DNA of 64,000 bases from Lentzea sp. NBRC 105346. GTDB taxonomy: Bacteria; Actinomycetota; Actinomycetes; Mycobacteriales; Pseudonocardiaceae. The notes beneath the pieces were generated by a model, which made no database searches, had not been told where the DNA came from, and saw only the letters and a program-made list of their open reading frames with translations. Positions 20,178-46,901 of the stretch are shown one piece after another (position 1 is the stretch's first letter; each line of letters opens with the position of its first letter). Position numbers and translations under genes: made by a program. The stretch is taken from positions 62,001-126,000 of the forward strand of contig NZ_BSTQ01000009.1 of assembly GCF_030269605.1 (NCBI RefSeq), in the 5' to 3' direction.

Positions 20178-20185
20178 TCCGAGGT

Positions 20186-29302: not shown

Positions 29303-30493
29303 ATGACGAAGGCGGAGTGGTTGCAGGTGCCGGTCGGGCTGGACGCGCCGCGGTGGGTGACGCGACCCGGCCTGCTCACCGTGCTGGTGGTCGTGCACAC
29401 GGTCACCAGTGGTCAGCGCCTGCTGGAGGCGATCGAGCTCGTCGAGCGCGACGCCAGGGTTCAGGTCGTCTACACCAGGGCTCCGGACGTGTTCGCCAAC
29501 GGTGTCGACGACTTCCTCGACGCGACCAAAGGCGTTGTCCTGTCATGGGAACAGGCGATCCGGGAGCGGTTCGACCTGGCCGTCGCGGCCGCTTACGGCG
29601 GACTGCCGCAACTCCACGCGCCGTTGGTCGTGATGCCGCACGGGGCGGGGTACGGCAAGACCAGCGGGGACGGCGCGGTCGTCTACGGCCTCGACGCGCA
29701 ACGGCTGACGCACAACGGAAAGCTGCTCGCCGAGGCAGTTGTTCTGTCGCACGAGCACCAGCTGGACGTGTTGCGCGCGCAGTGTCCGTCAGCGGTCGAT
29801 GCCGCTGTCGTCGCTGGAGACCCTTGCTACGACCGGATGATCGCCAGCCTGCCGCACCGCGATCGATACCGGGCCGACCTCGGTGTGGGCCCCGGTGAGA
29901 ACCTCGTGGTGGTGAGTTCGACCTGGGGGACGCAGTCCTTGTTCGCGCGCTTCGCGGACCTCGTCCCGCGGCTGCTCGACGAGTTGCCGTCGCGGCACTG
30001 CGTGGCCGCACTGATGCATCCGGCTGTGTGGTTCGGGCACGGCGAGCGCCAGGTCAGGGCGTGGCTCGCCGACAGCGCCGACGCGGGTCTCAAGGTGATC
30101 GGCCCGCATGTCGACTGGCGGGCGGTCCTCGTCGCCGCCGACCACGTCGTGGCCGATCACGGCTCGGTAGGTGTCTACGCCGCGGCGATCGGCCGGCCCG
30201 TGCTGCTGGCCGAGCCGGCTCCGCACGCGGTGACCTCGGGCGGGTCGGCGCAGGACGTGTTGCGCCGCAACGCGGTCACCTGTCGGATGGACCGGCCGTT
30301 GCGCGGTCAGCTGGAGGAGGCGCACGACCGCGCCGAGGATCTGCGCGACCTGGTCGCGGGTCTTCTCACGTCGTGTCCCGGACGTTCGACCGCCCTGATC
30401 CGGGAGGCCATGTACCGGCTGCTGGGCCTTTCCGTCCCTGGGAAGCATCGCGCCCCCGAGCCGGTGACCATCACCGCGGAGGTGGACCGATGA
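29303..30493 (+). CDS. GT-B-like protein (CDP-glycerol transferase/epimerase-like), paralogue A
   Basis: A 396-residue protein of GT-B-like architecture. N-terminal Rossmann half: LLTVLVVVHTVTSGQRLLEA, APLVVMPHGAGYGKTS, VVAGDPCYDRM. C-terminal half: LVVVSSTWGTQSLFARFADL, LMHPAVW, then VLVAADHVVADHGSVGVYAA followed by IGRPVLLAEP. The last pattern is that of the donor-binding half of TagF-type CDP-glycerol transferases and related epimerases. Substrate and reaction are unknown. ATG 29303 follows an AAGGGGGA Shine-Dalgarno sequence. A paralogue lies at 45290-46864; each faces an NB-ARC STAND gene. Its stop overlaps the next small ORF (ATGA). Confidence 0.75.
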   Translation: MTKAEWLQVPVGLDAPRWVTRPGLLTVLVVVHTVTSGQRLLEAIELVERDARVQVVYTRAPDVFANGVDDFLDATKGVVLSWEQAIRERFDLAVAAAYGGLPQLHAPLVVMPHGAGYGKTSGDGAVVYGLDAQRLTHNGKLLAEAVVLSHEHQLDVLRAQCPSAVDAAVVAGDPCYDRMIASLPHRDRYRADLGVGPGENLVVVSSTWGTQSLFARFADLVPRLLDELPSRHCVAALMHPAVWFGHGERQVRAWLADSADAGLKVIGPHVDWRAVLVAADHVVADHGSVGVYAAAIGRPVLLAEPAPHAVTSGGSAQDVLRRNAVTCRMDRPLRGQLEEAHDRAEDLRDLVAGLLTSCPGRSTALIREAMYRLLGLSVPGKHRAPEPVTITAEVDR

Positions 30494-30735
30494 TCGTGCA
30501 CTGGGAGGATCCCGTCGCCGCGTGCTGCACGCCGGACCAGGTGCGCGATTCTGTGGCCATGTCGCTGCAGGCCTGGGTCACGGCCGGCCTCAACCTGAAC
30601 CTGCTGGTGCGACACGGTTTGCCGGTGTGGTGCGCGGAGCACCGGGCGGCCGGGTCGCGCACTTCATGTGGGCGGCTGCGGGTCAGCGCCGACGAGGTTG
30701 TCGAGCAGGTCGGACACGGCTCGCGCCCTGGGTGA
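30490..30735 (+). CDS. Small ORF coupled to GT-B-like gene
   Basis: An 81-residue frame starting in the GT-B-like stop codon (ATGA overlap): MIVHWEDPVAACCTPDQVRD, then helical AMSLQAWVTAGLNLNLLVRH and a Cys/His pair in VWCAEHRA. The last 72 bp run antisense through the 3' end of the STAND gene and look like read-over. The gene may therefore be truncated, with only about residues 1-55 original. No domain is recognised, and no equivalent is seen in the second module. Confidence 0.5.
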   Translation: MIVHWEDPVAACCTPDQVRDSVAMSLQAWVTAGLNLNLLVRHGLPVWCAEHRAAGSRTSCGRLRVSADEVVEQVGHGSRPG

Positions 30736-32793
30736 CCCGAGCGAGGTGAACAGGTGGGCGGCCGCGCGCAGGTGTTCCACCGCCTCGGTGTCGTCACCGC
30801 GGTTCCGGGCGACCAGGGCGAGCACCTCGTGCGAACGGGCGGCACCTTCGGGCGAACCGAGCTCACGCATCAACCCGAGCGTTTCCCCGGCGATGTCGTC
30901 CGCACGATCGAACTCCCGCGCGCGGCAGTGCACTTCCGCCTGTGTCACCAGCACTCTGGCTCGGTTGTACGGATCAGGCTCCGGCAGTGCGTCGAATATG
31001 GCCAGCGCACGCGCCAAGCTGGTCTGTGCCTCGGTGAACTGGCCGACGTGGCTCATCGCGGTGCCGAGGTGGATGAGGCTCAACCCCAGGCTCCGGTGTG
31101 CGCCCAGCATCTGGTTGGCGTCCACCAGCGCCGAGAACTCCGTGACCGCTTCGGCGGTCCGGCCGGTTTCCGCGTACAACAACGCCAGCGCTTCGCGCGC
31201 GTCGGCGGCACCTCGCTGGTCGCCGTTGGCGGTGGCGAGCTCCATGGAAGCCCGGAGGTGCTGTTCGGCCTCGTGGTGCAGGCCGAGCGTCGTGCTGACC
31301 CGGCCGAGCCGCTTGAGCATGTCCGCCTCGGCGAACCGGTTTCCCCAACGCCGGGCGGCGTCGACACCGCGCTGGTCGATGGCCAGTCGGTCACGATAGT
31401 GCTTGCGGTGCAACAACAACGGCCACATCACGTCCGACAGGTGCCAGGTCAGCTCGGCCCACCCCGATGCCATCGCGGCCTGCCCGGCCGCGATGAGGTT
31501 CGCGCGTTCCAGCTCGAGCCAGGCCAGCGCGTCCTCACGGGAGTCGAACCGGGGGAGTTCCGCGGGGGCGCTGTGAAACGCGTAGTCGAGCCGCCGCCGA
31601 TGTGGCGTCACGATCCGGTCGGCGGCCATGGCACCGGCCAGGTACCACTCGAGCACATGCCTGAGCGGTGCCTCGCGGTCCTCGATCTGTTGTCGTGCGT
31701 GCAGTTTCACGAGGTCGTGGTACCGATAGCGGTCTTCGGCCACCTCCTCCAGCAGACTGTTGTCGATCAGCTGATCCAGCACTCGGCGTGCACCCGCGAG
31801 GCCGCATCCCAGCACCGAGGCGGCCACCGCGGGGCCGAACGTCTGACCGGGGTGCAGCGCGAGCGTTCGATAGGCCGTCGCGACGTGGTGGTCGAGCGCG
31901 CGATAGGAAAGGTCGAAGGTCGTCTGGATCGACAGTTCCGTGGACGGCGACAGCGTCGCGAGCCGGAACTGCTCGTCGGCGAGTTCGCTGACGACTCGGC
32001 GTACCGGCCACTTCGGGTGTGAGGCGAGCCGTGCGGCCGCCATGCGCACGGCGATCGGCAGCCCGCCGCACAGCCCGGCCAGAGCTTCGGCGCCGTCGGG
32101 CTCCGCACCGATCCGGTCATCGCCCACCGCCTTCGCCAGCAGTGCGACCGCCGATGACGCCACCAGTGGGCGGATGTCGAGCAGGCGAGCGCCGTCCGCG
32201 AACAGTCCGGTCAGGCGCGTGCGGCTGGTGACGACCACGGCACTGGTCGACGAGTTCGGCAGCAGCGGGCGGACCTGCAGCGCGTCGGAGGCGTTGTCGA
32301 GCAACAGGATCAGCGACCTCCGGGCGGTGAGCGAGCGGTACAGCGCCGCCTGCTCGGCGAGATCGACCGGAACGTGCTGAGGTGCCAGCCCGAGCCCGCG
32401 GAGGAACAGTCCCAGCGCCTCCTGGGGGCTCATCGGCGGCTCGCCGCCGAACCCGCCGAGGTCCACGTACATCTGCCCGTCGGGATATCGGTCGTGGACC
32501 CGGTGCGCCCACTGCATCGCCAGCGCCGTCTTGCCGACTCCGCCCGGACCGGTGAGCACCGCGAGCATCCGTTCGCCCGAACGGGCCAGCTCGTCGAGCT
32601 CCGCGAGCTCCGACTCACGATCGGTGAAGTGCGCGGGTGCGGGCAGCAGCTGCCTCGGGACCGGGGCCTGGGGAATCCCGGTGTGGAAATGGATGTCGCC
32701 ATGAACCGCACCGGCCTGGACGACGCCGCCGTGGATCGTGCCGGCCATCTCGTTGCGGACCTCGCCGGGCGTGCTCGAGTCCCCCGCGTCCAT
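30664..32793 (-). CDS. NB-ARC/TPR STAND protein with N-terminal RHIM/PP-like motif, copy A
   Basis: A 709-residue NLR-like STAND ATPase. Residues 14-37 hold a short beta motif, TIHGGVVQAGAVHGDIHFH, whose V-V-Q-A-G core resembles the bacterial amyloid-signalling motif related to RHIM and fungal PP. NB-ARC follows: Walker A LTGPGGVGKTALAM (about 80-95), SLILLLDNASDALQVRPLL (Walker B), VVVTSRTRL, GGLPIAVRMAAARL, a winged helix (LDQLIDNSLLEEV) and TPRs to the C-terminus. ATG 32793 has a G-rich Shine-Dalgarno sequence. There is no effector domain, so partner recruitment through the motif is the likely output. It converges on the GT-B-like operon. Confidence 0.85.
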   Translation of the reverse strand: MDAGDSSTPGEVRNEMAGTIHGGVVQAGAVHGDIHFHTGIPQAPVPRQLLPAPAHFTDRESELAELDELARSGERMLAVLTGPGGVGKTALAMQWAHRVHDRYPDGQMYVDLGGFGGEPPMSPQEALGLFLRGLGLAPQHVPVDLAEQAALYRSLTARRSLILLLDNASDALQVRPLLPNSSTSAVVVTSRTRLTGLFADGARLLDIRPLVASSAVALLAKAVGDDRIGAEPDGAEALAGLCGGLPIAVRMAAARLASHPKWPVRRVVSELADEQFRLATLSPSTELSIQTTFDLSYRALDHHVATAYRTLALHPGQTFGPAVAASVLGCGLAGARRVLDQLIDNSLLEEVAEDRYRYHDLVKLHARQQIEDREAPLRHVLEWYLAGAMAADRIVTPHRRRLDYAFHSAPAELPRFDSREDALAWLELERANLIAAGQAAMASGWAELTWHLSDVMWPLLLHRKHYRDRLAIDQRGVDAARRWGNRFAEADMLKRLGRVSTTLGLHHEAEQHLRASMELATANGDQRGAADAREALALLYAETGRTAEAVTEFSALVDANQMLGAHRSLGLSLIHLGTAMSHVGQFTEAQTSLARALAIFDALPEPDPYNRARVLVTQAEVHCRAREFDRADDIAGETLGLMRELGSPEGAARSHEVLALVARNRGDDTEAVEHLRAAAHLFTSLGSPRARAVSDLLDNLVGADPQPPT

Positions 32794-33099
32794 GGCACAC
32801 CCCCGCCGTGCGCTCGCAGCTGCGTAAACATGACAAACGTACGGTAAGGACGCTCTCCATCAGTGCGGTTCGGAGTCGAAACCACCCGTGATGCCTAGGC
32901 CGCCGCGGGATCCGGCCAGGTCCGTGACGGGGAGTCACCCCCTTGTGGGTGATCACCGGTCGACGGACCTATTGCGACAATCCGTAACGTATGTGCGAAC
33001 CGCCTTGTGGTGATTCGGCGAACTGTGCACTTTGGCTGTAGCTCGAACGTGTTTGTTTGGTTACTGTCCGATATGTCGATCACAGGCGGAGGGACGATC
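32794..33099. other. Divergent intergenic region with nested inverted repeats
   Basis: This gap separates the STAND gene (minus) from the permease gene (plus) and must hold both promoters. It contains GTGAC/GTCAC arms (32924-32928 and 32934-32938) and an overlapping TCACCC/GGGTGA pair (32935-32940 and 32947-32952), so two alternative hairpins or a compound operator are possible. PucR at 37203 or a SARP could act here. No gene is seen. Confidence 0.4.
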
Positions 33100-34419
33100 A
33101 TGGCCGCTCTCCTCGGGCATGACGACCAAGCCCTCACGCGTGTCCCTGACCAGGCGCGCTACCCCTGGGTGTCGGTTGCGACCCAGCGCTTCGGGCAGTC
33201 GTCCGCGCTGAGCCAGTTGCTGCTGGGCGCGACACTCGGGTTCGGCATGACGTTCTGGGACGCCTTCATCGCGCTCAGCCTCGGCGCGATCCTGCTCGAC
33301 CTCCTCGCGATCGCCGTCGGCATCATCGGGCAGCGGGAGGGGCTCGCCACCGCGATGCTCGCCCGCTGGACCGGGTTCGGGCACGCCGGCAGCGCCATGC
33401 TCGGGCTGATCGTCGCGCTCAGTGCGACCGGGTGGTTCGGCATTCAGACCGGGCTCGCGGGCGCGACGCTCGCGGGGGTCACCGGCTTCAATCACCCTGC
33501 CGTGTGGTCGGTGGTGCTCGGGGCGCTTGTCACCATCATCGCGGCCTACGGCTTCCGGTGGATGGCTTGGACGGCGTACATCGCCGTGCCGCTGTTCCTG
33601 ATCGTGACCACCTGGGTCCTCATCAAGGTCATCGACAACCACGGGATCGGCACGCTGTTCAGCGAGTCGCCGCCGGGACCGAAGATCAGCATGCTCACCG
33701 CGATCACGTTGGTGACCGGGTCGTTCATCGTCGGGGCGGCGATCGCGCCGGACATGACGCGGTTCAACCGGTCGTCGTGGGACGTGGTCAAGCAGACGGT
33801 CATCGGCATCACGTTCGGTGAATGGGTCGTCGGCTGCTCGGGCATCGTGCTCGCGCACGCGTTGCGGAGCAACGACATCGTTGCCGTCGTCACCGACCAG
33901 GCGGGATGGCTGGGCGGGCTCGTGGTGATCACCGCCGTGATGAAGATCAACGACTGGAACCTCTACTCGGCGTCGCTCGGACTGGTGAACTTCTTCGACG
34001 CCGTCTTCGACATCCGCGTCAGCCGGGCGCAGGTGTCGATTCTGATCGGCGCGACGGGCACGTTCCTCGCCGCGGCGGGCATCCTCGCCGAGTTCACCGG
34101 CTACCTGTCGATGCTCGGAGTCGTGTTCCCGGCCGTGCCCGGCATCATGCTGGCCGAGTACTTCGTGGTGCGCCGCTGGCGCCGCGAGATCGTCGGGACC
34201 CGGCCGCACGTGCCGAGATCCGCGCCGGCCTGGGTGCCGGTGACCGTCGTCATCTGGCCCGTGGCCGCGATCGTCGGTGAGAAACTTCCGTTCGGACAGT
34301 CGAGCATCAACGCGCTGGTGCTCGCGTTCGTGCTCTACGTCTCGGCGGGCCGGCTGGACCTCCTGCGCATGCGGTGCCGGAGGGCGACCAACCGCAGGGT
34401 GGAGCCGACGGCCGCCTGA
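33100..34419 (+). CDS. NCS1-family cytosine/purine permease
   Basis: A 439-residue membrane transporter with about 12 TM helices, of the nucleobase:cation symporter-1 (CodB-like) family. Typical features are a soluble N-terminus ending RYPWVSVATQRFGQSSALSQ, GATLGFGMTFWDAFIALSLG, SATGWFGIQTGLAGAT, GSFIVGAAIAPDMTRFNRS and INDWNLYSASLGLVNFFD. ATG 33100 is preferred over ATG 33073 because of the GGAGGGA Shine-Dalgarno sequence 7-8 nt upstream. It leads the operon with the hydantoinase-like, DUF917 and PucR genes, so its substrate is probably a hydantoin, purine or pyrimidine ring compound. Confidence 0.9.
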   Translation: MAALLGHDDQALTRVPDQARYPWVSVATQRFGQSSALSQLLLGATLGFGMTFWDAFIALSLGAILLDLLAIAVGIIGQREGLATAMLARWTGFGHAGSAMLGLIVALSATGWFGIQTGLAGATLAGVTGFNHPAVWSVVLGALVTIIAAYGFRWMAWTAYIAVPLFLIVTTWVLIKVIDNHGIGTLFSESPPGPKISMLTAITLVTGSFIVGAAIAPDMTRFNRSSWDVVKQTVIGITFGEWVVGCSGIVLAHALRSNDIVAVVTDQAGWLGGLVVITAVMKINDWNLYSASLGLVNFFDAVFDIRVSRAQVSILIGATGTFLAAAGILAEFTGYLSMLGVVFPAVPGIMLAEYFVVRRWRREIVGTRPHVPRSAPAWVPVTVVIWPVAAIVGEKLPFGQSSINALVLAFVLYVSAGRLDLLRMRCRRATNRRVEPTAA

Positions 34420-34429
34420 GGAAGGGACC

Positions 34430-35989
34430 ATGCACATCGGAATCGACGTCGGTGGCACGAACACCGACGCCGTGCTCGTCGATGGCCGCCGCGTGCTCGC
34501 GACGGCCAAGGTCGAGACGACGCTGGACGTCACCAGCGGAATCGTCCTGGCGATCCAGAAGTTGCAGATCACCCGCGCCTTCCGGCCCGAGGACATCCGG
34601 GCGGTGATGATCGGCACGACGCACTTCGTCAACGCGCTCGCCGACGGCACCGGGCTGGCGCGCACGGCCGCCGTGCGGCTCGGACTGCCTGCCACCGGGG
34701 CACTTCCGCCGTTCGTCGACTGGCCCGACGGGCTGCGGGACGCCATCGGCGGGCACGCCTACCTGTGCCACGGCGGCCACGAGTACGACGGCCGGGTGAT
34801 CTCGCCGCTGAACGAGGACGAACTGCGCGGCGTCGCCAGGGACATCGCGGACCAGGGCGTGCGCAGCGTCGCGATCTCGTCCGTCTTCTCGCTGGTGAAC
34901 TCCGACTTCGAACGCCAGGCGGCCGAGATCCTGACCGCCGAGGTGCCCGGCCTGATGGTCAGCTTCTCGCACGAGATCGGCCGGATCGGCTTGCTGGAGC
35001 GGGAGAACGCCACCATCGTCAACGCCGCGCTGCGCGAGCCGGCCGAGCAGATCGCGGACGGGCTGGTGGCGTCGCTGACGTCGTACGGCATCCACGCGCC
35101 GGTGTACCTCAGCCAGAACGACGGCACGCTGATGGACCTCGAGTACGCGCGTTGCTACCCGGTCGCCACCTTCGCCTCGGGGCCGACGAACTCCATGCGC
35201 GGCGGCGCTTTCCTGTCCGGGCTCGACGAGTGCGTGGTCGTGGACGTCGGCGGCACGACGACCGACATCGGCGTTCTGCACAACGGCTTCCCGCGCGAGG
35301 CGCCGTCCGAGGTGTCGATCGGCGGGGTGCGCACGAACTTCCGGATGCCCGACGTGACGTCGCTTCCGCTCGGCGGCGGCAGCGTCGTGCGCGGGGACGT
35401 GATCGGGCCGGACAGCGTCGGGAGGCTGTTGTCGCGCAAGGCTTTGGTGTTCGGCGGCGACACGCTCACCGTCACCGATCTCGCCGTGGCCGCCGGTCGC
35501 GCGGACATCGGTGACGCGGGCCGCGTCGCGCACGTCGACCGGTCGCTGGCGTCGACGGTGCTGAAACGGATCGCCGGTCGCGTCGCGGGTGTCGTCGACC
35601 GCATGCGCACCAGCCCGGAGCCGCTGCCGGTCGTACTCGTCGGCGGCGGCAGCGTGCTGCTGCCCGACGAACTGGACGGCGTGACGACCATCGTGCGGCC
35701 CTACCAGCACGATGTCGCCAACGCCATCGGCGCGGCCATCGCCCAGGTCGGCGGCGAGGTCGACCGCGTCTTCCCGGTGGACGCACGGCGGCGTGACGAA
35801 ACCCTTGACGCGGCACAACAGGAGGCCGTCGACAAGGCGGTCGCGGCGGGGGCGCGCGCGGACACCGTGCGGATCGTCGAGGTGCAGGAGATCCCGCTGG
35901 CGTACCTGCCCGGCAACGCGAGCCGGATCCGCGCGCGGGCCGTCGGCGACCTCGCGTTCGAGGACGTGGCGAGACGGGCGCGCGCCTGA
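34430..35989 (+). CDS. Hydantoinase/oxoprolinase (HyuA-like) family protein
   Basis: A 519-residue ATP-dependent ring-opening enzyme family member. The N-terminal Hydant_A_N part has the actin-like phosphate loop GIDVGGTNTDAVLVDG and IGTTHFVNALADG. The core has VATFASGPTNSMRGGAFLSG, VVVDVGGTTTDIGVL, LPLGGGSVVRG and VVLVGGGSVLLP. The expected reaction is ATP-driven hydrolysis of a cyclic amide, but this short single-chain form lacks the HyuB partner and its true substrate is unknown. ATG 34430 lies 10 bp after the permease stop with a GAAGGG Shine-Dalgarno sequence. Confidence 0.88.
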   Translation: MHIGIDVGGTNTDAVLVDGRRVLATAKVETTLDVTSGIVLAIQKLQITRAFRPEDIRAVMIGTTHFVNALADGTGLARTAAVRLGLPATGALPPFVDWPDGLRDAIGGHAYLCHGGHEYDGRVISPLNEDELRGVARDIADQGVRSVAISSVFSLVNSDFERQAAEILTAEVPGLMVSFSHEIGRIGLLERENATIVNAALREPAEQIADGLVASLTSYGIHAPVYLSQNDGTLMDLEYARCYPVATFASGPTNSMRGGAFLSGLDECVVVDVGGTTTDIGVLHNGFPREAPSEVSIGGVRTNFRMPDVTSLPLGGGSVVRGDVIGPDSVGRLLSRKALVFGGDTLTVTDLAVAAGRADIGDAGRVAHVDRSLASTVLKRIAGRVAGVVDRMRTSPEPLPVVLVGGGSVLLPDELDGVTTIVRPYQHDVANAIGAAIAQVGGEVDRVFPVDARRRDETLDAAQQEAVDKAVAAGARADTVRIVEVQEIPLAYLPGNASRIRARAVGDLAFEDVARRARA

Positions 35990-36141
35990 GACGGACCGTT
36001 GGTAGCGAGTCGTGCGCCGAACGGCCGAGGCGTTCGACCACGTTTCTGAAGGGATTTCGCGTCCTGCGGGTAGCTGAACAGCGAAAACGTCCTCATTTGT
36101 GCCTCATGACGTGGTGCCGGTCGCCCGTTAGCCTCTCCGGC

Positions 36142-37206
36142 ATGCGCCTGATCACCCCCGACGACGTCGACCGGCTGGCGGTCGGCGTGATCATGTTGGG
36201 CAGCGGGGGCGGCGGCGGTGAGCAGGACGTTCACGTCGTCACGACCATGCTCCGCCACGCGATCCGGACCAACGGGCCGGTCCGCGTGCTCGACGTCGAG
36301 GAGATCGACCCGGACGCGCTCGGCGTGCGCGCCGGCCTGATCGGCGCGCCGACCGTGATGATCGAGAAGCTGCCGTCCGGGAACGAGGCCGCCGAGGCGC
36401 TGCGGGCCGTCCGGCCGGAGGGCGAACCGCCGGTGAGCGCGGTGATCGGCTGGGAGATCGGTGGCTGCAACGGCCTGTTCCCGTTGCTGCTCGCCGCACA
36501 GCTCGGCCTGCCGTACGTGGACGTCGACGGCATGGGCCGCGCGTTCCCGCGCATCGACCAGACCACGTACGACGCCGCCGGCCTGCCGATCACGCCGCTC
36601 GCGATCACCGAGCCGAGCGGGAACCGGGCGCTGCTCGACTCCTCGGCCATCGAGAAGCTCGCGCGCACGGTCATGGTCGACTTCGGCGGCTGGGCGATGA
36701 TGGTCGCCCGGCCGTTGCGCATCGGAGACGCTGCCAAAGCCGGCATTCCGGGAACCCTGGCCCGAGCGTTGGAGCTCGGCGGAATCTGGGCGTCGCCGCA
36801 GGAGTCGCACGGCACACGCGGACGTGCGGAGGCCTCGGGGGGATTCCTGGTAGCGCGCGGAAAGGTGGTCGAGGTGTGGCGCGAGTCGACCGGCGAGTTC
36901 CCGCGCGGAACCGTCGCGGTGCGGCGACTCGACGAGGACGACTCGTACGTGCGGCTGGAGATGCAGGGCGAGTACCTCGTCGTGCTGGCCGACGGCGAGC
37001 CGCTGGTGACGACACCGGACCTGATCTGCTGCCTGGACGCGGAGTCGGGCCGGGCCATCGGCACCGAACGGCTCAGCTACGGCACCGTGATCGACATCGT
37101 GGCGCTGCCCGCACCACCGCAGTGGGTGCGACCGCGGATGCTCGGCCGGGTCGACCCGCGTGCGTTCGGGTACGACCTCGACTACCTCCCCTTTGGACAG
37201 TCGTGA
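36142..37206 (+). CDS. DUF917 family protein (HyuA-associated)
   Basis: A 354-residue DUF917 protein. Features: MRLITPDDVDRLAVGVIMLG followed by a Gly-rich loop (SGGGGGE) and VSAVIGWEIGGCNGLFPLLL. Further on it has GLPYVDVDGMGRAFPRIDQT and MVDFGGWAMMVARPL. DUF917 genes are regularly adjacent to short HyuA-like genes and PucR regulators, and the product is thought to be the second subunit or next enzyme. The activity is not established. The start is ATG 36142, 7 nt after a TAGCCT hexamer (36130-36135), so it may also have its own leaderless transcript. Its stop overlaps the pucR-like start (GTGA). Confidence 0.87.
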   Translation: MRLITPDDVDRLAVGVIMLGSGGGGGEQDVHVVTTMLRHAIRTNGPVRVLDVEEIDPDALGVRAGLIGAPTVMIEKLPSGNEAAEALRAVRPEGEPPVSAVIGWEIGGCNGLFPLLLAAQLGLPYVDVDGMGRAFPRIDQTTYDAAGLPITPLAITEPSGNRALLDSSAIEKLARTVMVDFGGWAMMVARPLRIGDAAKAGIPGTLARALELGGIWASPQESHGTRGRAEASGGFLVARGKVVEVWRESTGEFPRGTVAVRRLDEDDSYVRLEMQGEYLVVLADGEPLVTTPDLICCLDAESGRAIGTERLSYGTVIDIVALPAPPQWVRPRMLGRVDPRAFGYDLDYLPFGQS

Positions 37207-38735: not shown

Positions 38736-39673
38736 CCGTACAGCGCGCTGAGTTCTCCGGCGATGCGGGCCAGTTCTTGGCGCACGGGTTCGGAGTCGAC
38801 CACCTCGATCGCACTGCCCCAGCCCGCGAGCCACTGCGCGATCATCACCGGGGCCGGGGCGGCGAGCCTGACCTCGACCCGCCCATCCGGCCGGGTTTCG
38901 CCGACCTCGCACTGACGGCCGAACTGGTCGCGCAGCACCCACACGTGCCGCTGCGCGATCAGCACGGTCGCCTCGACGGTCGAGCGCTTGCGTTCCACCT
39001 CGGCGACCGTCCGTTCCCACGCCTCCGCGAGCTCGAAGTCGCCGGGACGCTCGGCTGGCAGGTCGGTGACGTCGGCGGTCGCGATGCGGTCGACGCGGAA
39101 GGTGCGCTGGCCGTGGTCGGTGCCGGCGAGGAAGTACCAGATGTCGTCCTTGTCGACGAGGCCCCACGGGTCGACGAGGCGTTGCGTGGTCTGCCGATCG
39201 CGGTTGGTGTAGCCGATCCGGACCTTGCGGCGGCGGACCACCGCGGTCTGCAGCACGTCGACGAGCTCCGGACGGTCCTTCGTGTGCGCGCCCCACGCGG
39301 CGGGGTCGATCACGACGGCGCCCGCGGCCGCCTCGGCGTCCGCACGGAAGGTGCCCGGCAGGGCGCCGACCAGCTTGCGCAGCGCGGACTTCGCCTCCTT
39401 CGACACGGCGGCGGCCGGACCCGCCAGCAGGAACAACGCCTGTGCCTCCGTCGCGGTGAGGCCGCTGAGGTCGGTGCGGGCTCCGCCGAGCAACGACCAG
39501 CCGCCGCCGCGGCCGGGTTGCGGGTACACGGGCACGCCCGCGGCGGAGAGCGCTTCGAGGTCGCGGCGGGCCGTGGCCACGGAGACCTCGAGCTCGTCGG
39601 CCAGCTCCGCGGCCGTGACCCGGTCGCGGGTCTGCATGTACAGCAGCATGGCGACGAGGCGGTCAGCACGCAT
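38732..39673 (-). CDS. WYL-domain regulator (YafY/DeoR-type HTH)
   Basis: A 313-residue regulator. The N-terminal winged helix is MRADRLVAMLLYMQTRDRVT then AAELADELEVSVATARRDLE and ALSAAGVPVYPQPGRGGG. A middle WYL domain (about 140-225) has VRRRKVRIGYTNRDRQTT, RLVDPWGLVDKDDIWYFLAG and FRVDRIATADV. The C-terminal WCX-like part ends VVDSEPVRQELARIAGELSA. WYL regulators sense nucleic acids or small ligands, sometimes in stress or defence loci. The start is ATG 39673; the long upstream extension of the frame is not needed. It is divergent from the nSTAND gene. Confidence 0.92.
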   Translation of the reverse strand: MRADRLVAMLLYMQTRDRVTAAELADELEVSVATARRDLEALSAAGVPVYPQPGRGGGWSLLGGARTDLSGLTATEAQALFLLAGPAAAVSKEAKSALRKLVGALPGTFRADAEAAAGAVVIDPAAWGAHTKDRPELVDVLQTAVVRRRKVRIGYTNRDRQTTQRLVDPWGLVDKDDIWYFLAGTDHGQRTFRVDRIATADVTDLPAERPGDFELAEAWERTVAEVERKRSTVEATVLIAQRHVWVLRDQFGRQCEVGETRPDGRVEVRLAAPAPVMIAQWLAGWGSAIEVVDSEPVRQELARIAGELSALYG

Positions 39674-39883
39674 GCGGCCAGTGTGGCAGTCAAAGTGCTC
39701 ATCGGCTGCGCACTTATGCGGCCGCGCTCGCACAGGCGTCCCCGGCGCAGGGGGACCCCCTAATTTCAATTCTCCCAGATGACACCGACAGTTCGGGGGC
39801 GTCGAGCGGAGTTGTCCACAGGCATGGTGCAAGGATCGGCGAAACGTCGTGATCGCCCCCACCACGCCTGGCACGCTGCGGAT

Positions 39884-42595
39884 GTGCCCAGGTCAGAACG
39901 TCCGCTGCCGAACGACGGGACACCGCTCAGCGGCTTCGCGACGGACCTGCGGTCGTTGCGGCAACGGGCGGGCGGACCGCCGTACCGCGAGCTGGGCCGG
40001 CGCGCCGGTTACTCGGCGGCGACGTTGTCCGAGGCGGCGGGCGGAAAGCGGTTGCCGAGCCTCGACGTGACGCTGGCGTTCGTGCGCGCGTGTGACGGCG
40101 ACACCGATGAGTGGGAGAACCGGTGGCACGCCATCGCGGCCGGTGCCAGTCCCGCGCCGGCCGTCGACCACGCTCCCGCGCCGTACACGGGGCTCGCGCC
40201 GTTCGGGCCCGGCGACGCGGACCGGTTCTTCGGCCGCGAGCGGCTGACCGAGGATCTGCTGGCACGCAAGGAATCCCTCATCACGGTGTTCGGCGCCTCG
40301 GGGTCAGGCAAGTCGTCGCTGCTGCGGGCCGGGCTGGCGCCGCGGTTGCGCGGCCGGGTCGTGGTCGTCACGCCGGGCGATCGGCCGTTCGAACGGTGTG
40401 CGCAGCAGATCGCACGCGTCAGCGGGTTGCCGCAGGCTCAGCTCGACGATCCGCGCGACCTGCACCTGTTGTTGCGGCAGGCGGCCATCGACCGCGGGGT
40501 CGTGCTGATCGTGGACCAGTTCGAGGAGGTCTTCACGCTGTGCGGCGAGGAGGAGCGCGGCCGGTTCATCGCCGCGCTCGCCGCCGCCGCGACCGGGAAC
40601 GTCCGCGTGGTCCTGGGGGTCCGCGCGGATTTCTTCGCCCACTGCTCGATGTACGCGGAGCTGGTCGAGTCCGCGCACGTGACCGTGGGGCCGATGTCGC
40701 CGGACGAGCTGCGCCGCGCGATCACCAAGCCCGCGCTCGGCGCGGGCGGCAAGGTGGAGAACGCGTTGCTGGCGCACCTCGTCGCACAGGTGCACGGCAG
40801 TGCGGGCGTGCTTCCGTTGCTGTCACACGCTTTGCTCGAAACGTGGCGGCGCAGGCAGGGCACCATGATGACCCTCGCCGGCTTCCACGCGTCAGGTGGC
40901 ATCGACGGCGCGCTCGCGAAGACCGCGGAGTCGGTGTACGGCGAGTTCGATGTGCGGCAACGGTTGCTCGCGCGGAACCTCTTCCGCCGACTCACGGCAC
41001 CCGGCGACGGGACCGAGGACACCAAGCGCCGCATCGGGATCGACGAGCTCGACGACGACCCGGACCTCGCGGTCGTCCTGGACCGCCTGACGTCCGCGCG
41101 CCTGCTCGTGCGCGACCAGGACGGCGTCGAGATCACGCACGAGGCGTTGATCCGGGCGTGGCCGCGGCTGACGGAGTGGCTGAACGCCGACCGCGACGGC
41201 CTGCGCGTACACCGGCAGCTCACCGAGGCGGCGCGGCAGTGGGAGTCGCTGGGGCGCGACCCCAGCCTGTTGTTCCGTGGCACCCGGCTCGCCGTCGCGC
41301 GCGAATGCGAGACGGGGCTCAACGCTTCCGAGCAGGCGTTCCTCGACGCGAGCCTCACCGAACAGCAGGCCGACGAGGCGTGGGCACGCCGGCGGACGCG
41401 GCGGCTGCGGCAGCTCATCGCGCTGCTCAACGTCGTTGTCGCGCTGCTCGCGGTCGCGGTGTTCGTCGCGGTCGACGCGCAACGGATGGCCGAGCGTGAA
41501 CGCAACGTCGCCGTGGCGCGCAAGGCGATTCAGGACGCCGATCTCCTGCGCGGTGACGACCCGCGGCTCGCGGCGCGGGTGGCGCTCGCCGCGTACCGGC
41601 TCGCGCCGAGTCCCGAGGCGCGCAACGGCTTGGTCAACGCGCACGCGACGCACTCGCGGTTTCAGGACGGGCCGTCGTTGCCGGTACCGGGTCCGCTTCC
41701 GGGTGTCCCAGCGCCCTCGCCGGCGTTGCCGGCCGACGCCGTGCACCCGGACCACAAGCTCTTCAGCCTCACCGGCACCTATCCGGTCGTGGTCCGCGGT
41801 GCGGACGAACGCCGGATCGTCACCGCGGGAGACGACGTCCGCCTGTGGGACGCGACGTGCGAGATGCCGTGCGAGATCGGCCGGATCGAGGGCAAGGCCG
41901 ACGCGGTGGCGTTGCGGCCGGACAACCGCGTGCTCGCCGTGTCGAGCGGCCGGTCGACCCGGTTGTGGGACATCGAGGATCCGCGAAACCCCAAGCAGCT
42001 CAAGGTGTTCCTGTACGACGCGCAGTGGGCGGTGTTCAACCGGGACGGCTCGGTCCTCGCGACCGGCAGCGAGACGTCGCCGGTGTCGTTGTGGGACATG
42101 GCATCGCCGGCCGAACCGCGGCGGGTGGCCGTCGTCGGGCTGAGCACCGGCGACAACGGCGGCGCGTTCGGCCCGACGGGTCTGTTCGCCACCACCAACC
42201 CGGACGGCACGCTTTCCCTGTGGGACACCAAGGATCCCACGCGTGTGCGCAACCTCATGACGGTCAACCGCAATCCCGGCCGCTACCACGCGCCTTCGTT
42301 CAGCAAGGACGGGCACGTGCTCGGCGCGTTGAACGGCGACCGGTCCGCCACGGTGTGGCGCGTCGAAGACGACAAGCTCCTGGACGCACCGCTGGAGGCG
42401 GCGTCCGCGGCCGACATGTCGATGCTGACGTTCCCCGCGGACGGAACCGTTCGCGGCTATGGCCGGGGCACCGCGACGACGTGGACACCGGACGTCTCGA
42501 AGGTCGCCGAAGAGGTCTGCCGGGCGGGGCCGTTGGACGCCGAGCAGTGGAAGCGGTTCTTCCCCGGTGTGCCACGCCAGACGGAATGCCGCTGA
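39884..42595 (+). CDS. HTH-nSTAND1-WD40-like membrane protein
   Basis: A 903-residue STAND protein. The N-terminal XRE-like HTH is DLRSLRQRAGGPPYRELGRR then AGYSAATLSEAAGGKRLPSL. The nSTAND1 ATPase has YTGLAPFGPGDADRFFGRE, Walker A FGASGSGKSSLLRAGLAPRL and Walker B VLIVDQFEEVFTLC. A winged-helix/arm region follows, then one TM helix at about 510-530 (LIALLNVVVALLAVAVFVAV). The C-terminal WD40-type propeller (DVRLWDATCE, STRLWDIEDP, VSLWDMASP, LSLWDTKDP) would face outside. This layout is a common actinomycete signalling protein, possibly in immunity. GTG 39884 (VPRSERPLP) is the preferred start over ATG 39779. Confidence 0.87.
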   Translation: MPRSERPLPNDGTPLSGFATDLRSLRQRAGGPPYRELGRRAGYSAATLSEAAGGKRLPSLDVTLAFVRACDGDTDEWENRWHAIAAGASPAPAVDHAPAPYTGLAPFGPGDADRFFGRERLTEDLLARKESLITVFGASGSGKSSLLRAGLAPRLRGRVVVVTPGDRPFERCAQQIARVSGLPQAQLDDPRDLHLLLRQAAIDRGVVLIVDQFEEVFTLCGEEERGRFIAALAAAATGNVRVVLGVRADFFAHCSMYAELVESAHVTVGPMSPDELRRAITKPALGAGGKVENALLAHLVAQVHGSAGVLPLLSHALLETWRRRQGTMMTLAGFHASGGIDGALAKTAESVYGEFDVRQRLLARNLFRRLTAPGDGTEDTKRRIGIDELDDDPDLAVVLDRLTSARLLVRDQDGVEITHEALIRAWPRLTEWLNADRDGLRVHRQLTEAARQWESLGRDPSLLFRGTRLAVARECETGLNASEQAFLDASLTEQQADEAWARRRTRRLRQLIALLNVVVALLAVAVFVAVDAQRMAERERNVAVARKAIQDADLLRGDDPRLAARVALAAYRLAPSPEARNGLVNAHATHSRFQDGPSLPVPGPLPGVPAPSPALPADAVHPDHKLFSLTGTYPVVVRGADERRIVTAGDDVRLWDATCEMPCEIGRIEGKADAVALRPDNRVLAVSSGRSTRLWDIEDPRNPKQLKVFLYDAQWAVFNRDGSVLATGSETSPVSLWDMASPAEPRRVAVVGLSTGDNGGAFGPTGLFATTNPDGTLSLWDTKDPTRVRNLMTVNRNPGRYHAPSFSKDGHVLGALNGDRSATVWRVEDDKLLDAPLEAASAADMSMLTFPADGTVRGYGRGTATTWTPDVSKVAEEVCRAGPLDAEQWKRFFPGVPRQTECR

Positions 42596-42712
42596 TCGTT
42601 ACACCCTTTGCCGTAACGCAACGCCATTGTGATCACCTGATCGGGTTAGCGATTTGTCGCAAATGGAGGAGGACTCTCTGGGGCGTCGATCCGGTACGAA
42701 AGGGGCGTCCCG

Positions 42713-43288
42713 ATGAGCACGATTCTCTACGCGCAGCGCACGGTCAGCCGCTATACCGCCAAACCCGGCGAGACGTCGCGACCGGCCCTGGTCCTCGACG
42801 CCGTCGCGGCGCTCGTGCCCGCGGAGGTGCTCGCCGCCCACGCCCTGATCATCCCGATGCTGACCACCAAGGCGATGACCGCGCAGGGCGAGGTCGTCAC
42901 GGTGATCAGCCAGGCGAACGCGGCGACGCTCGGCTGGGTGTTCTGGGCGCTGCTGCTGCTCGCGTCCGGCGTGTACCTCGTCGGCAGAGTCGGGCAGAAC
43001 CTGTTCCACAGAGGCGATTTCATGCGCATGCTCATCCCGCCGGCCGCGTTCGTGTGCTGGGCCATGATGATGCAGTCGACCGTGTTCGACGGCGCTTATC
43101 CGGCGGTGGACACCGGTGCCCGCAACGCCGGCGCGATTCTCGGCGTGATCACGCTTGGGGTGCTCGCCGGTGTGCTGGCCAACAGTGCCGCGGAGACCGA
43201 TCTTTCGGCGCCCAAGCACGAGATGCACGAGCCGAGTCTGAACGGGCACCTCGCTACTGACGACACCAAGGAGTTCGCGGCGGTCTGA
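42713..43288 (+). CDS. Hypothetical four-helix membrane protein
   Basis: A 191-residue membrane protein. Hydrophobic stretches lie at about residues 28-52, 74-93, 104-122 and 137-157, joined by short loops (AKPGETSRPALVLDAVAALV before the first, VGQNLFHRGDF before the third). The C-terminus is polar (KHEMHEPSLNGHL). ATG 42713 follows an AAAGGGG Shine-Dalgarno sequence. It lies between two STAND genes on the same strand, 117 bp after the first and 100 bp before the second. A membrane effector role beside the RHIM-like STAND protein is possible, but no matching motif is seen in it. Confidence 0.65.
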   Translation: MSTILYAQRTVSRYTAKPGETSRPALVLDAVAALVPAEVLAAHALIIPMLTTKAMTAQGEVVTVISQANAATLGWVFWALLLLASGVYLVGRVGQNLFHRGDFMRMLIPPAAFVCWAMMMQSTVFDGAYPAVDTGARNAGAILGVITLGVLAGVLANSAAETDLSAPKHEMHEPSLNGHLATDDTKEFAAV

Positions 43289-43388
43289 CCCAGGCGGGTG
43301 ATCGCGCCTGTGGATTTCCGTTAAACGCTGTCCTTCACGTTTTACCCGGCCGATACGCTCGACTGATCAAGGGCCGGGGAGGCGTGGC

Positions 43389-45332
43389 GTGGACAACGTG
43401 ATGAGCGGTCAGGCGGGCAACGTCGTGCAGGCGGCGTCGGTCGGCGAGATCCACTTCCACGGGGTCGAGCTACCCAAGCCGCATCAGCTGCCCTCCGCGA
43501 TCGACCGGCTCGTCAACCAGAAGCGGGTGCTGGGCGAACTCGACGAGGCGCTGGCCCTGCGTGGTGACAAGCCGGTGATCCGGGTGCTGCGCGGGCAGCG
43601 TGGCAGCGGGAAGTCGACGGTCGCGGTGAAGTGGCTGGACGACACCCGCGAGCAGTTTCCGGACGGCCAGCTCTACGCGGATCTCGGCGCGTGGACCGAC
43701 GAGGCCGAGGCGCCCAGCGAGGTGCTCGCCGAGTTCATCGCCGCACTCGGCCTGGGCCGCGACCAGATTCCGGCCGGGCTGGGGGCCCGGTCCGGACTGT
43801 TCAAGTCGATGACCGACGGCCGGTCGTTCCAGGTTCTGCTGGACGACGCGGTGACGCCCGCGCAGGTACGGCCGTTGCTGCCTGGTCGTGGCGGGTCGAT
43901 GGTGCTGGTGACCGGGCACGGTGCGTTCGCCGCGTTGCATCAGGAGAACGCCCGGCAGCTCGACATCGCGCCGCTCGAACCGGAGATGGCGGTTGAGCTG
44001 CTGCGGACCATCATCGGCGACCGGGCGGACGAGCCGGGCCGGGACGTGTTGGTGGAGAAGTGCGCCGGGCTGCCGGCGGCGCTGTGCGTGGCGGGTCTGG
44101 TGCTGGCCGAGTCGCAGGGCATGTCTGTGCGGGATCTCTTGGACGAGCTCGACGAGGTCGGCATCACCGGCATGACGGTCGGTGGCGAGCCATCGCTCGG
44201 CCAGGTGTTCGGCGTCGGCTACGAGCGGTTGAGCACCGAGTCGCAGCGGTGGTACCGCGTCATCGGGCTGCATCCGCGCTGGGAGGATGTGCCCCTCGCC
44301 GCTCTCGGTGCCGATCGGCGGGCATTGCGGGAGCTCGAAGTGATGCGGATCGTCGAGTTTCCGCGGTCCGGGCGGCTGACCGTGAACAAGCTTGTGCACG
44401 AGCACGCCCGGCGGGTCGCGGAAGCCGTCGACCCGCCGGAGGTGCGCGCCGCGGTGCGGCGGATGATGCTGCGCTGGTACGAGGCGAGGGCGGTGGCCGC
44501 CGACGAGTCTCTTGTGGGAGCGCGGCCGTGGCGCAAGCGCTACTTCCCGGAGTCCCTTGTGGACGAACCGTTCGCTGCGAAGGACGTGGCGGCGCAGTGG
44601 ATGCGGGACGAGCGGCTGAACCTGCGCGCGGCGGTGAAGCTGGCCGCCGACCTGGACGAGCCTCGAACGGTGCTGCGGCTGTGCGTGACGCAGTGGTGGT
44701 TGCTGGAGTCGGAGAAGTACGCCGACGACGTGCTCGCGACGCACCCGCTCGGGATCACGGCCGCCGAGCACCTCGAACTGCCTGATCTCAAAGCGTTGTT
44801 GCTGGTGCAGCAGGGGTTCGCGATGAGGTTCCGGTATCGGCCGGCCGAGGCGCGGGAGTTGTTCGAGCAGGCTGCCGGGGTGGCGGTTGACCCGGAGCTC
44901 AAAGCGACCGCGGTGGAGGGTGCTGGGCTCGCGGCGTTCGACGCCGGGAACGAGGCCGAGGCCCAGAGGTTGTTGCGGCACAACCTGGAACTCGCCGAGG
45001 ACATCAAGGATCCGAGGCGCCGCGCATTGGCGTGCCTGCACCTCGCCAAGGTCGAAGAGGCTGATCGGGCGCTGGAGTTGCTGGAGCGCGCGAAAGCGGA
45101 GTTCGAGTCGTCCGAGCCGGTGAACTTCGCGAAGGTACTGCTGTGGCAAGGGCGTAAGAGCGGTCGCCGGGAGTTGTTGCTGGAGGCGCTCGCGATCATG
45201 ACCGAGCTCGACCGGCAGCTCGACCGCGCGGAGATCCTCGTGGCGCTCGGCGAGTACCGGCAGGCGTTGGAGATCTACACCGAGCGCGGTCAGATCTGGG
45301 CCGCGAAGGCCCTCCAGGAGCGGCTGGACTGA
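43389..45332 (+). CDS. NB-ARC-like STAND protein with N-terminal RHIM/PP-like motif, copy B
   Basis: A 647-residue STAND ATPase starting at GTG 43389. Residues 10-24 read GNVVQAASVGEIHFH, closely matching the N-terminal motif of the STAND protein at 30664 (V-V-Q-A and I-H-F-H kept). Next come Walker A LRGQRGSGKSTVAV (about 63-76), VLLDDAVTPAQVRPLLPG (Walker B), MVLVTGHGAFAALHQ, CAGLPAALCVAGLVLAESQG, a winged-helix region and TPR-like helices to the C-terminus. No separate effector domain is present. Its 3' end overlaps the convergent GT-B-like paralogue by 43 bp. Confidence 0.82.
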   Translation: MDNVMSGQAGNVVQAASVGEIHFHGVELPKPHQLPSAIDRLVNQKRVLGELDEALALRGDKPVIRVLRGQRGSGKSTVAVKWLDDTREQFPDGQLYADLGAWTDEAEAPSEVLAEFIAALGLGRDQIPAGLGARSGLFKSMTDGRSFQVLLDDAVTPAQVRPLLPGRGGSMVLVTGHGAFAALHQENARQLDIAPLEPEMAVELLRTIIGDRADEPGRDVLVEKCAGLPAALCVAGLVLAESQGMSVRDLLDELDEVGITGMTVGGEPSLGQVFGVGYERLSTESQRWYRVIGLHPRWEDVPLAALGADRRALRELEVMRIVEFPRSGRLTVNKLVHEHARRVAEAVDPPEVRAAVRRMMLRWYEARAVAADESLVGARPWRKRYFPESLVDEPFAAKDVAAQWMRDERLNLRAAVKLAADLDEPRTVLRLCVTQWWLLESEKYADDVLATHPLGITAAEHLELPDLKALLLVQQGFAMRFRYRPAEARELFEQAAGVAVDPELKATAVEGAGLAAFDAGNEAEAQRLLRHNLELAEDIKDPRRRALACLHLAKVEEADRALELLERAKAEFESSEPVNFAKVLLWQGRKSGRRELLLEALAIMTELDRQLDRAEILVALGEYRQALEIYTERGQIWAAKALQERLD

Positions 45333-46864
45333 AGCCACACCCGGTGTGGAAAGTCCTCGAGCGGGTGGCGTTCGAGCCACGCCAGCACCAGCGGAGCCCA
45401 CACGCGGCCGTCGCCGTCCGGTGAGGTGAACGCGATGCAGCCGGTCCGGGTGCCGACGAGCCACGTGGTGTCGTCGATGGGCGCGGTCGCGACCATCGCA
45501 CCGGGGAGCGCGGCGAGCGTGCCGGTGATCCAGGCGTGGGCGTCGCCGGGCCGGGCGTGCACGACCGCGTCCGCGAGTTCCAGTGCCGTCGCGGTGGGTT
45601 CGTCGGTCGACACGACGAGATAGGTGTGTGCCGGCAGCGGGCGGGGGTCGGTGGCGTGCCGGACGACGGTGCCGTTCAGGGAGTTGTCCGACACGGTGTA
45701 CTCGATCCGCACGGCCTCGACCGTTGGCGGCCGGACTCGCCACTGGGGCAGCGGGACGGCGTGTGTGGGGGCGGCGTCGGCGGGCTCGGGAAGGTCGAGC
45801 AGCCGGTACAGCTCGGTGCGCAGCAGCCGGGCCGACGAACCGGGCACGGACGTGGTGAGGCCGGTGATGTCGTCGTGCGTGCGTTGGTCGTGCAACGCCG
45901 CGCGGACCTGCGGTTCCAGCGGTGTGGAGCGGTCGAGCCGGTCGGCCGCGGCGACGAAGCGGCCGACGGGGGATCCGGGGTCGAGCCGGTCGTGTGGCCA
46001 GGTGGCCAGCAGCGTCGGTGTGCCCAGCGCGGCGCCGTAGAACGTGACGCTGCCGTGGTCGCCGACCACGAGGTCCGCGCTGACCAGGCCCGCGCGCCAG
46101 CCCTCGGCCCGCGGGATGAGCGCGACACCGGCGCGTAGGCAGGCGTCTAACCAGCGTTCGACCTGCCAGCGTGAGTGCAGCGCCTGCACGTTGGGGTGCA
46201 GGGCGATCGCGATCGCGTACTCGTCCAGCGGGAGTTCCGCGCGCAGGGTTCGGACCAGGTCCGGCGTCGCGTCGAACAGCGACGACGGGCCCCACGTCGA
46301 CGAGACGAACACGAGTTTTTGGTCGGGGCGCACGCCCGCCGCGTCGCGATAGGTGTGCCGCAGCGGCCGGCTCGCCAGCATTCGGTCGAAGCACGGGTCG
46401 CCGGCGACGACCGCGGCGCCTAGCGCCTCGGGGCACGAGCGGCGCAGCCGGTCGAGTTGCTCGTCGTGTGAGAACACGAGCGACGACGCGATCACGCGGC
46501 CGTTGTGCAGCAGCGAGGCCGGTTCCATGCCGAAGACCGAGCCGTTCAGGAACTTGTTGTAGCCGGTCCCGTGGGGCAGCACGACCAGCGGCGTGCCGAG
46601 CTCGTGCAGGCGGCCGTGGCTGGCCGCGATCGCCAGGTCGGCGTGCCCCGGCTCGTCCCACGGCACGGTGCGGAAGCCGTGGGCCGCCAGGTAAGGGTCG
46701 ACGTCAGCGGTGAACGGCGAGGAGTTCGTGCAGGTGACGGCCACCTCGACCCGCGGGTCGGTCGCCACCAGCGGCAGCACGTCCAGCAGCCGCGTGGCCG
46801 ACGTGACGTTGTGCACGACGCCGAGCACGGTTCGCTGCGGTCGTCTCGTGCCTGCGTCGAACAC
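45290..46864 (-). CDS. GT-B-like protein with extra C-terminal domain, paralogue B
   Basis: A 524-residue paralogue of the 29303 protein. Shared elements: TVLGVVHNVTSATRLLDVLP, TPLVVLPHGTGYNKF, AAVVAGDPCFDRMLASRPL, KLVFVSSTWGPSSLFDATPD, and LVSADLVVGDHGSVTFYGAA then LGTPTLLATWP. It adds about 140 residues with no known match (VEAVRIEYTVSDNSLNGTVV to WAPLVLAWLERHPLEDFPHR). The start is GTG 46864, immediately after a strong promoter with a palindromic spacer, so the mRNA should be leaderless. The KAS III gene lies 33 bp upstream on the same strand. The substrate is unknown; a role shared with the facing STAND gene is suggested by the repeated arrangement. Confidence 0.75.
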   Translation of the reverse strand: MFDAGTRRPQRTVLGVVHNVTSATRLLDVLPLVATDPRVEVAVTCTNSSPFTADVDPYLAAHGFRTVPWDEPGHADLAIAASHGRLHELGTPLVVLPHGTGYNKFLNGSVFGMEPASLLHNGRVIASSLVFSHDEQLDRLRRSCPEALGAAVVAGDPCFDRMLASRPLRHTYRDAAGVRPDQKLVFVSSTWGPSSLFDATPDLVRTLRAELPLDEYAIAIALHPNVQALHSRWQVERWLDACLRAGVALIPRAEGWRAGLVSADLVVGDHGSVTFYGAALGTPTLLATWPHDRLDPGSPVGRFVAAADRLDRSTPLEPQVRAALHDQRTHDDITGLTTSVPGSSARLLRTELYRLLDLPEPADAAPTHAVPLPQWRVRPPTVEAVRIEYTVSDNSLNGTVVRHATDPRPLPAHTYLVVSTDEPTATALELADAVVHARPGDAHAWITGTLAALPGAMVATAPIDDTTWLVGTRTGCIAFTSPDGDGRVWAPLVLAWLERHPLEDFPHRVWLQSSRSWRAFAAQI

Positions 46865-46872
46865 GAACGATG

Positions 46873-46901
46873 ATCATAGACTGTCCACAGTGGACTGTCA
46901 G
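46873..46901 (-). promoter_or_regulatory. Promoter with 21-bp palindrome in the spacer, before GT-B paralogue B
   Basis: On the minus strand, CTGACA (46901-46896) and TATGAT (46878-46873) are separated by exactly 17 bp, which is close to consensus. A 21-bp palindrome GACTGTCCAC-A-GTGGACTGTC (46879-46899, 9 of 10 positions symmetric) covers the spacer. A bound repressor would block the promoter. Transcription should begin at or next to GTG 46864. Confidence 0.65.

Follow-up and report, generated by a model that had tools for sequence, protein, structure and literature searches.

In a 64,000-nucleotide stretch of the genome of Lentzea sp. NBRC 105346 (contig NZ_BSTQ01000009.1, positions 62,001 to 126,000; referred to here as the window), two genes for NB-ARC-containing STAND proteins each meet, tail to tail, one of two genes for proteins resembling glycosyltransferases (GTs) of the GT-B fold. 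The question raised by this locus is whether the repeated convergent arrangement marks two products that work together, as an initial annotation of the sequence had suggested, and what such a pair might do. We find that the pairing is genuine and widespread, that the two genes covary, that one of them belongs to an enzyme family without a name, and that a joint function of the GT-B-like and STAND products is very likely. The features of the window are collected in Table 1.

All four open reading frames (ORFs) are present where they had been placed and show codon-position GC of the coding type. Both STAND genes encode an NB-ARC domain (39.2 and 30.3 bits, against a Pfam cutoff of 23.5) and are 32% identical to each other over 645 columns, while the two GT-B-like genes are paralogs (45% identity, 377 columns); the 43-bp overlap of the second pair was likewise confirmed. 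For GT-B-like gene 1, the start at 29303 is favored over 29144 because the family profile match starts there. A small coupled ORF that had been placed within the first pair (30471-30866, minus strand) did not hold up: its codon-position GC is 0.55/0.77/0.83, compared to 0.75/0.49/0.86 in the adjoining STAND gene, and its Arg/Pro-rich frame has no match in Pfam or NCBIfam. As this ORF is not coding-like, the first pair is simply convergent, with a 170-bp gap. The same genome contains a third GT-B-like gene (G000:C2), which also has a convergent NB-ARC gene.

To gauge how far the arrangement extends, a similarity scan was carried out across the genomes of 84,980 species, and the best 80 of 119 relatives were kept (79 loci, all titled actinomycetes). 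In the first gene calling on this set, 69 of 87 GT-like ORFs had an immediately adjacent convergent NB-ARC gene. The remaining 18 comprised 9 that were convergent after one or two genes, 3 detected by tblastn only (L011, L036, and L041), 3 fragments, 2 at contig ends, and 1 that was co-directional (L080); at 3 of the 79 loci (L040, L052, and L069), no GT ORF was called. A recount of the same loci with profile hidden Markov models (HMMs) retrieved a convergent NB-ARC gene within 3 kb for 79 of 82 GTs, with 3 more cut by short flanking sequence. This recount enters L040 and L052 as misses, the latter having only a short NB-ARC piece, together with the second copy at L080, whose NB-ARC gene is co-directional.

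Samples free of any ranking by resemblance to the window gene came from whole-genome searches with the family profile, with the Lentzea genome itself included in each draw. The GT-B family was present in 2 of 198 genomes drawn from the phylum, 30 of 345 from the class, and 87 of 150 from the family, with up to 10 matches per genome in the latter two draws. For the class sample, all matches outside the Lentzea genome were fetched, except for 4 in G430 and the fragments G323:C78 and G511:C64. Among the resulting 46 regions, 36 of 44 sufficiently complete GTs had a convergent NB-ARC gene; the exceptions were L100 and L101 (NB-ARC just upstream and co-directional), L130 (divergent), and five without an NB-ARC gene, including the distant L131 and L132. 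Three further class regions held fragments only. In the family sample, for which 13 regions were hand-picked among the matches listed, 14 of 15 GTs were convergent with an NB-ARC gene, as were 3 of 3 in the Lentzea genome.

Across all samples, 132 of 144 GTs with enough flanking sequence have a convergent NB-ARC gene within 3 kb. Some loci of the two collections come from one and the same species, or very nearly so; GTs were also collapsed by identity, giving 120 of 132 at 90% and 79 of 89 at 70%. With 68 NB-ARC matches in the 9.39-Mb Lentzea genome, we estimate the chance of finding a convergent NB-ARC gene in the 3 kb downstream of any one gene at ∼1%, so the observed geometry is far above chance. 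The association thus extends beyond this genome and holds in Pseudonocardiaceae, Streptomyces, and other actinomycetes. Copies are also plasmid borne (7 records), and two RefSeq plasmid copies with the same arrangement are annotated as "hypothetical protein" and "ATP-binding protein."

The tail-to-tail overlap might itself be the device, acting as an antisense toggle in which each transcript represses the other gene, an idea compatible with other readings of the pair. Overlaps of at least 4 nt are found in 64% of 69 convergent GT/NB-ARC pairs, compared to 22% of 104 other convergent pairs at the same loci, and an overlap of 38 bp is seen in the RefSeq annotation of the two plasmid copies. A simple scan found no terminator-like site around the window overlap, although the chance expectation was only 0.3 and a scan of this kind is coarse for DNA so rich in GC. 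Against such a toggle, one or two genes intervene at nine loci, the two genes of the first window pair lie 170 bp apart, and the pair is kept where its orientation has changed: NB-ARC precedes GT-B in one direction at L100 and L101, and GT-B precedes NB-ARC at L176 and in the second copy at L080. We therefore regard antisense control as improbable. The two copies of the latter order (L176, 4920-9273, from an IMG/VR contig with a 26-bp GT-B/NB-ARC overlap; L080, 12177-16495) carry yet another type of STAND N terminus.

If the two genes evolve as one unit, their sequences should change together. For the 132 convergent pairs, GT distances and NB-ARC distances are correlated with an r of 0.77. As a control for species history, partners were shuffled within genomes holding more than one pair (16 genomes, 38 pairs); the observed r of 0.675 was compared to 0.244 ± 0.099 in the shuffles (maximum, 0.643), and 0 of 2,000 shuffles reached it. 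The covariation is raised by four Lentzea loci with orthologous tandem pairs, and dropping three of the four gave an r of 0.428 versus 0.135 ± 0.081 (0 of 2,000). It is also partly carried by close relatives: with GTs more than ∼80% identical between genomes removed, r fell to 0.298, versus 0.038 ± 0.076 in the shuffles (11 genomes, 28 pairs; maximum, 0.297; 0 of 2,000). Partner distances thus covary beyond shared species history.

The partner STANDs also form a lineage of their own. In an NB-ARC tree built from every third pair plus those of the window and L135, together with 22 other NB-ARC ORFs of the Lentzea genome (20 regions) and the SARP-type regulator of the window, out of 65 other matches, 42 of 42 partners fell in one clade (support, 0.993), and 21 of the 23 other NB-ARCs of this genome fell outside it; the two non-partners inside the clade are from L161 and L165. 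Within five genes of the pair, the most frequent neighbor family is found at 11 loci, in varying positions, and no gene is shared at one position by more than about five loci, most of them from related species; no further gene family recurs at a fixed position beside the pair. These data bear on whether the pair could be an old chance neighborhood, held together by vertical inheritance and block transfer without any joint function. A single geometry does dominate, solo GTs exist, and close relatives contribute to the covariation. However, the pair stays constant while its surroundings vary between loci, paralogous pairs keep their own partners even after close relatives are removed, the linkage outlasts changes of orientation, and the NB-ARC lineage is a dedicated one. 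We consider linkage by descent alone very improbable, and the proposal that the two products work together is backed by both the cross-genome association and the covariation of partners.

Table 1. Positions within the window of the two gene pairs, their notable parts, and the adjoining regulator
Feature	Coordinates	Strand	Remarks
GT-B-like gene 1	29303..30493	+	Short type, GT-B domain only
STAND partner 1, NB-ARC and TPR repeats	30664..32793	-	Convergent; 170 bp from GT-B-like gene 1; partner-lineage profile score, 743
STAND 1 N-terminal peptide VVQAGAVHGDIHFH	32683..32724	-	RHIM-reminiscent; RHIM label weak
STAND partner 2, NB-ARC	43389..45332	+	Pfam NB-ARC; partner-lineage profile score, 649
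STAND 2 N-terminal peptide VVQAASVGEIHFH	43422..43460	+	
GT-B-like gene 2	45290..46864	-	Full type: GT-B domain and half-kinase domain
C-terminal domain of GT-B-like gene 2	45290..45769	-	Degenerate; corresponds to the C-terminal half of a PfkB/ribokinase-family kinase; GAGD motif absent
Overlap of 3′ ends, pair 2	45290..45332		43 bp
SARP-type regulator (BTAD, NB-ARC, TPR)	26127..29105	-	Divergent from GT-B-like gene 1; Pfam BTAD, 1.1e-30

Several other genes lie near the pairs. Between the two window pairs is a gene for a 938-amino-acid protein with helix-turn-helix, nSTAND1, and beta-propeller regions (39779-42595), which represents a different STAND type. A FabH-like ketoacyl-ACP synthase gene (46898-48118) lies just upstream of GT-B-like gene 2 on the same strand; its family is absent from the neighbor families recurring in at least four loci. 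Four Lentzea loci with two tandem pairs (L004, L005, L006, and L008) encode a small protein of ∼148 amino acids with a hydrophobic N terminus between the pairs (e.g., L004, 11653-12102). A segment of lower GC content within the window (14001-22000; 0.63 to 0.66) is possibly foreign.

What, then, is the GT-B-like protein? The fold assignment is supported by a confident predicted structure of the second protein, the one of the two that was modeled (pLDDT, 94.5), and the model resembles both TagF and UDP-GlcNAc 2-epimerase. The window GT-B proteins have no Pfam match up to an E value of 1 and none in NCBIfam, PHROG, or PADLOC. Despite the similar fold, the window GT is only 11% identical to the TagF-type wall teichoic acid polymerase; PF04464 is unmatched by either window GT, and no TagF chain was found by profile. 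The likeness to the epimerase (WecB/MnaA) is equally one of fold only, with 12% identity and no Pfam match, and the window GT is coupled to a STAND. The least variable part of the module is the GT-B domain, which forms its core: across 86 full pairs, its mean pairwise identity is 49%, compared to 30% for the half-kinase domain, 31% for NB-ARC, 28% for TPR, and 26% for the STAND N terminus. Of the 65 positions conserved in at least 90% of sequences, 60 lie within the GT-B domain, including H98, H133, D160, H223, and D269. Judging from the modeled fold and this conservation, the GT-B-like protein is best read as a conserved carbohydrate-active enzyme or ligand-binding protein, any catalytic activity being putative.

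Full-type GTs carry a second domain at the C terminus. Residues 366 to 524 of the second window GT, folded alone (pLDDT, 92.1), gave a Foldseek list made up almost wholly of ribokinase/PfkB-family proteins, every match being weak (E value of 0.06 or worse). By hhalign, the domain alignment matched five PfkB kinases encoded by adjacent genes at 97.4% (E value of 1e-11), covering the C-terminal half of the kinases, and the domain HMM scored the kinase at L124 at 65.9 bits, with 5 to 19 bits for the remaining four. At three loci (L060, L064, and L124), a full-length PfkB-family gene separates a short GT-B gene from the NB-ARC gene. Of 130 ORFs in the loci matching the domain profile (E value of up to 1), 124 were GT ORFs and the other 6 were at short GTs; GT-B-like gene 1 has no half-kinase domain in or after the gene. 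The domain is thus homologous to the C-terminal half of PfkB/ribokinase kinases but is without their N-terminal half and without their catalytic motif: GAGD (searched as G[ASCT]GD) occurs in 0 of 47 domain copies and in all five neighboring kinases. By sequence, full-type GTs end in one half of a PfkB-type sugar kinase that is catalytically dead and was probably retained for binding or docking. A distant GT-B subfamily lies beside an intact PfkB-type kinase, without NB-ARC, at L131 (3001-4353 and 2036-2971) and L132 (5800-7176 and 7212-8126), an arrangement that is possibly a relic of an ancestral metabolic pair.

The short type differs in its surroundings as well. An NB-ARC gene lies 5′ of 13 of 22 short-type GTs, compared to 12 of 119 full-type GTs, where it mostly belongs to the neighboring pair of a tandem duplicate. 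In 10 of the 13 short-type cases, the 5′ gene was scanned (L103, L129, and L148 being excluded), and BTAD was detected in seven, namely, the window, L064, L066, L079, L098, L104, and L107; it was not detected in L060, L121, or L130. At L107 and L121, the fetched sequence stops within the gene. SARP, short-type GT-B, and STAND may therefore form a three-gene module.

This association fits a view of the pair as a metabolic or developmental regulator and not an immune system, in which the GT-B protein, with a PfkB or half-kinase domain, senses or makes a sugar metabolite, an AfsR-related STAND relays the signal to gene expression, and the SARP is the transcription factor in the short type. PfkB kinases do adjoin some GTs, the recurring neighbors look ordinary by eye, and the window STANDs resemble AfsR/SARP regulators in having NB-ARC and, clearly so in STAND 1, TPR repeats, their best NCBIfam match being the AfsR model, far below cutoff. 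However, BTAD is missing from the window partner STANDs while present in the neighboring regulator, the three partner STANDs scanned carry neither BTAD nor another DNA-binding domain, and the patchy multicopy distribution, the plasmid copies, and the fast-evolving STANDs are more like those of a conflict system. We hold such a regulatory role to be unlikely.

On the STAND side, domain content varies. TPR repeats are strong in the first window STAND, whereas in the second, TPR_12 scores only 12.7 bits (cutoff, 30.1); a Streptomyces partner at L043, found by the partner-defining single-protein search, shows only a weak Pfam AAA_22 match and TPR. At least two classes of N terminus can be told apart: V-Q-A...H peptides, like those in the window, and, mainly in Streptomyces, a hydrophobic helical stretch rich in glycine. 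With loose regular expressions applied to 132 STAND N termini, 62 fit the first class and 29 the second only. At L134 (2537-3459), a GT-B fragment comes right after a gene for a 178-amino-acid protein whose N-terminal stretch is hydrophobic and helical, as in the Streptomyces STANDs.

The first class invites comparison with bacterial amyloid signaling sequence (BASS) signalosomes, in which an NLR and its effector share one amyloid motif (PMC7889193). Bacterial clusters of two genes, one for an NLR and one for an effector, have been described (Dyrka et al. 2020, as relayed in PMC7889193, PMC8086366, and PMC9815663). In both cases, an NLR-like STAND of a multicellular actinobacterium adjoins a second gene and bears a short, Gln-containing N-terminal peptide. 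Here, however, the partner is a conserved GT-B-like protein rather than BELL, CHAT, or TIR, and the geometry is mostly tail to tail. The initial annotation had called the peptide a RHIM motif. A V-V-Q-A..H-F-H peptide is indeed present in both window STANDs, but the second glutamine of the tested RHIM-like BASS3 peptide, VDLRDAKGVQVGDGNVQINRF (PMC8086366, Table 2), is missing, and the RHIM label is a weak one; in a Streptomyces example, foci were lost when a proline replaced either of the conserved glutamines (PMC9815663). The N-terminal peptide may be amyloid in nature. PADLOC-DB 2.0.0 gave no match for the two GTs or STAND 2, and STAND 1 matched only a generic TPR entry and one weak entry.

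The same comparison bears on a further reading, in which the STAND senses the trigger and turns on the GT-B protein as an effector, an enzyme that would modify an envelope polymer, a nucleotide sugar, or a protein and so halt infection or growth. No part of the pair is more conserved than the enzyme domain, NLR-plus-effector clusters are on record as noted above, and Kaur et al. list glycosyltransferase domains among the effectors of related NTP-dependent conflict systems (PMC7159879). Yet such an effector would make the seemingly exchangeable N-terminal module of the STAND redundant, and GT-B genes persist without a STAND. A BASS-type motif on the adjacent partner was found in 25 of 132 GTs, fewer than the 38 of 132 seen in control stretches. 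A shared motif that would make the GT-B protein a templated effector is accordingly unsupported, and an effector role in general appears rather unlikely, though a little more probable than the regulatory one.

The reading that we prefer, tentatively and at close to even weight, is that the GT-B enzyme is guarded or monitored by a dedicated, fast-evolving STAND switch with interchangeable outputs. This enzyme-and-switch reading is favored by the adjacency of the two genes, their covariation, the dedicated lineage, and N termini that change while the GT-B protein stays constant. That last contrast argues for placing the GT-B protein upstream of, or under guard by, the STAND, and we infer that the enzyme acts first. 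Each of the roles that the initial annotation had offered for the GT-B protein, namely, signal maker, envelope modifier, and guarded component, is compatible with these data. In such a scheme, the NB-ARC/TPR protein would be a switch dedicated to the GT-B enzyme, and a change in the state, substrate, or product of the enzyme, brought about by a phage, a competitor, or a metabolic upset, would be the trigger. The STAND would then assemble and act through its exchangeable N terminus, the output end being an amyloid-like peptide in many species and, in many copies from Streptomyces, a hydrophobic helical domain; the SARP regulator adjoining the short type may add a transcriptional output. Both the trigger and the outcome are proposals.

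Several observations weigh against this preference. GTs without a nearby NB-ARC gene exist (L040, L089, L096, L108, L146, and the distant L131 and L132), L052 has a mere short NB-ARC piece nearby, and such solo genes indicate that the GT-B protein is able to persist alone. The conserved geometry may partly stem from descent. As for the output end, 41 of the 132 STAND N termini fit neither pattern, and among 132 control stretches, each up to 500 residues long, 38 also match the loose peptide expression. No sign of a defense neighborhood was seen among the recurring neighbors, which look ordinary when judged by eye rather than through a defense library. The effector role set out above also competes directly with it. 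An anti-phage function is possible.

Taken as a whole, the locus may represent an undescribed actinomycete surveillance module in which a STAND guards a GT-B enzyme, a captured kinase has decayed to a half-domain serving as sensor or dock, and a mostly tail-to-tail, overlapping pair duplicates and spreads as a unit while its output is swapped; we regard this fuller picture as quite possible but doubtful in its entirety. Searches of the open PubMed Central literature, from which most subscription papers are absent, retrieved no description of a GT-B/STAND pair. Actinomycetes can encode dozens of NB-ARC proteins per genome, and, to our knowledge, few of their triggers and outputs have been described. 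A lineage of receptors whose enzymatic partner is fixed and conserved provides a defined pair for asking whether bacterial NLRs guard metabolic enzymes, as plant NLRs guard host proteins, with the direction of signaling made testable by the dead kinase domain and the varied output modules.

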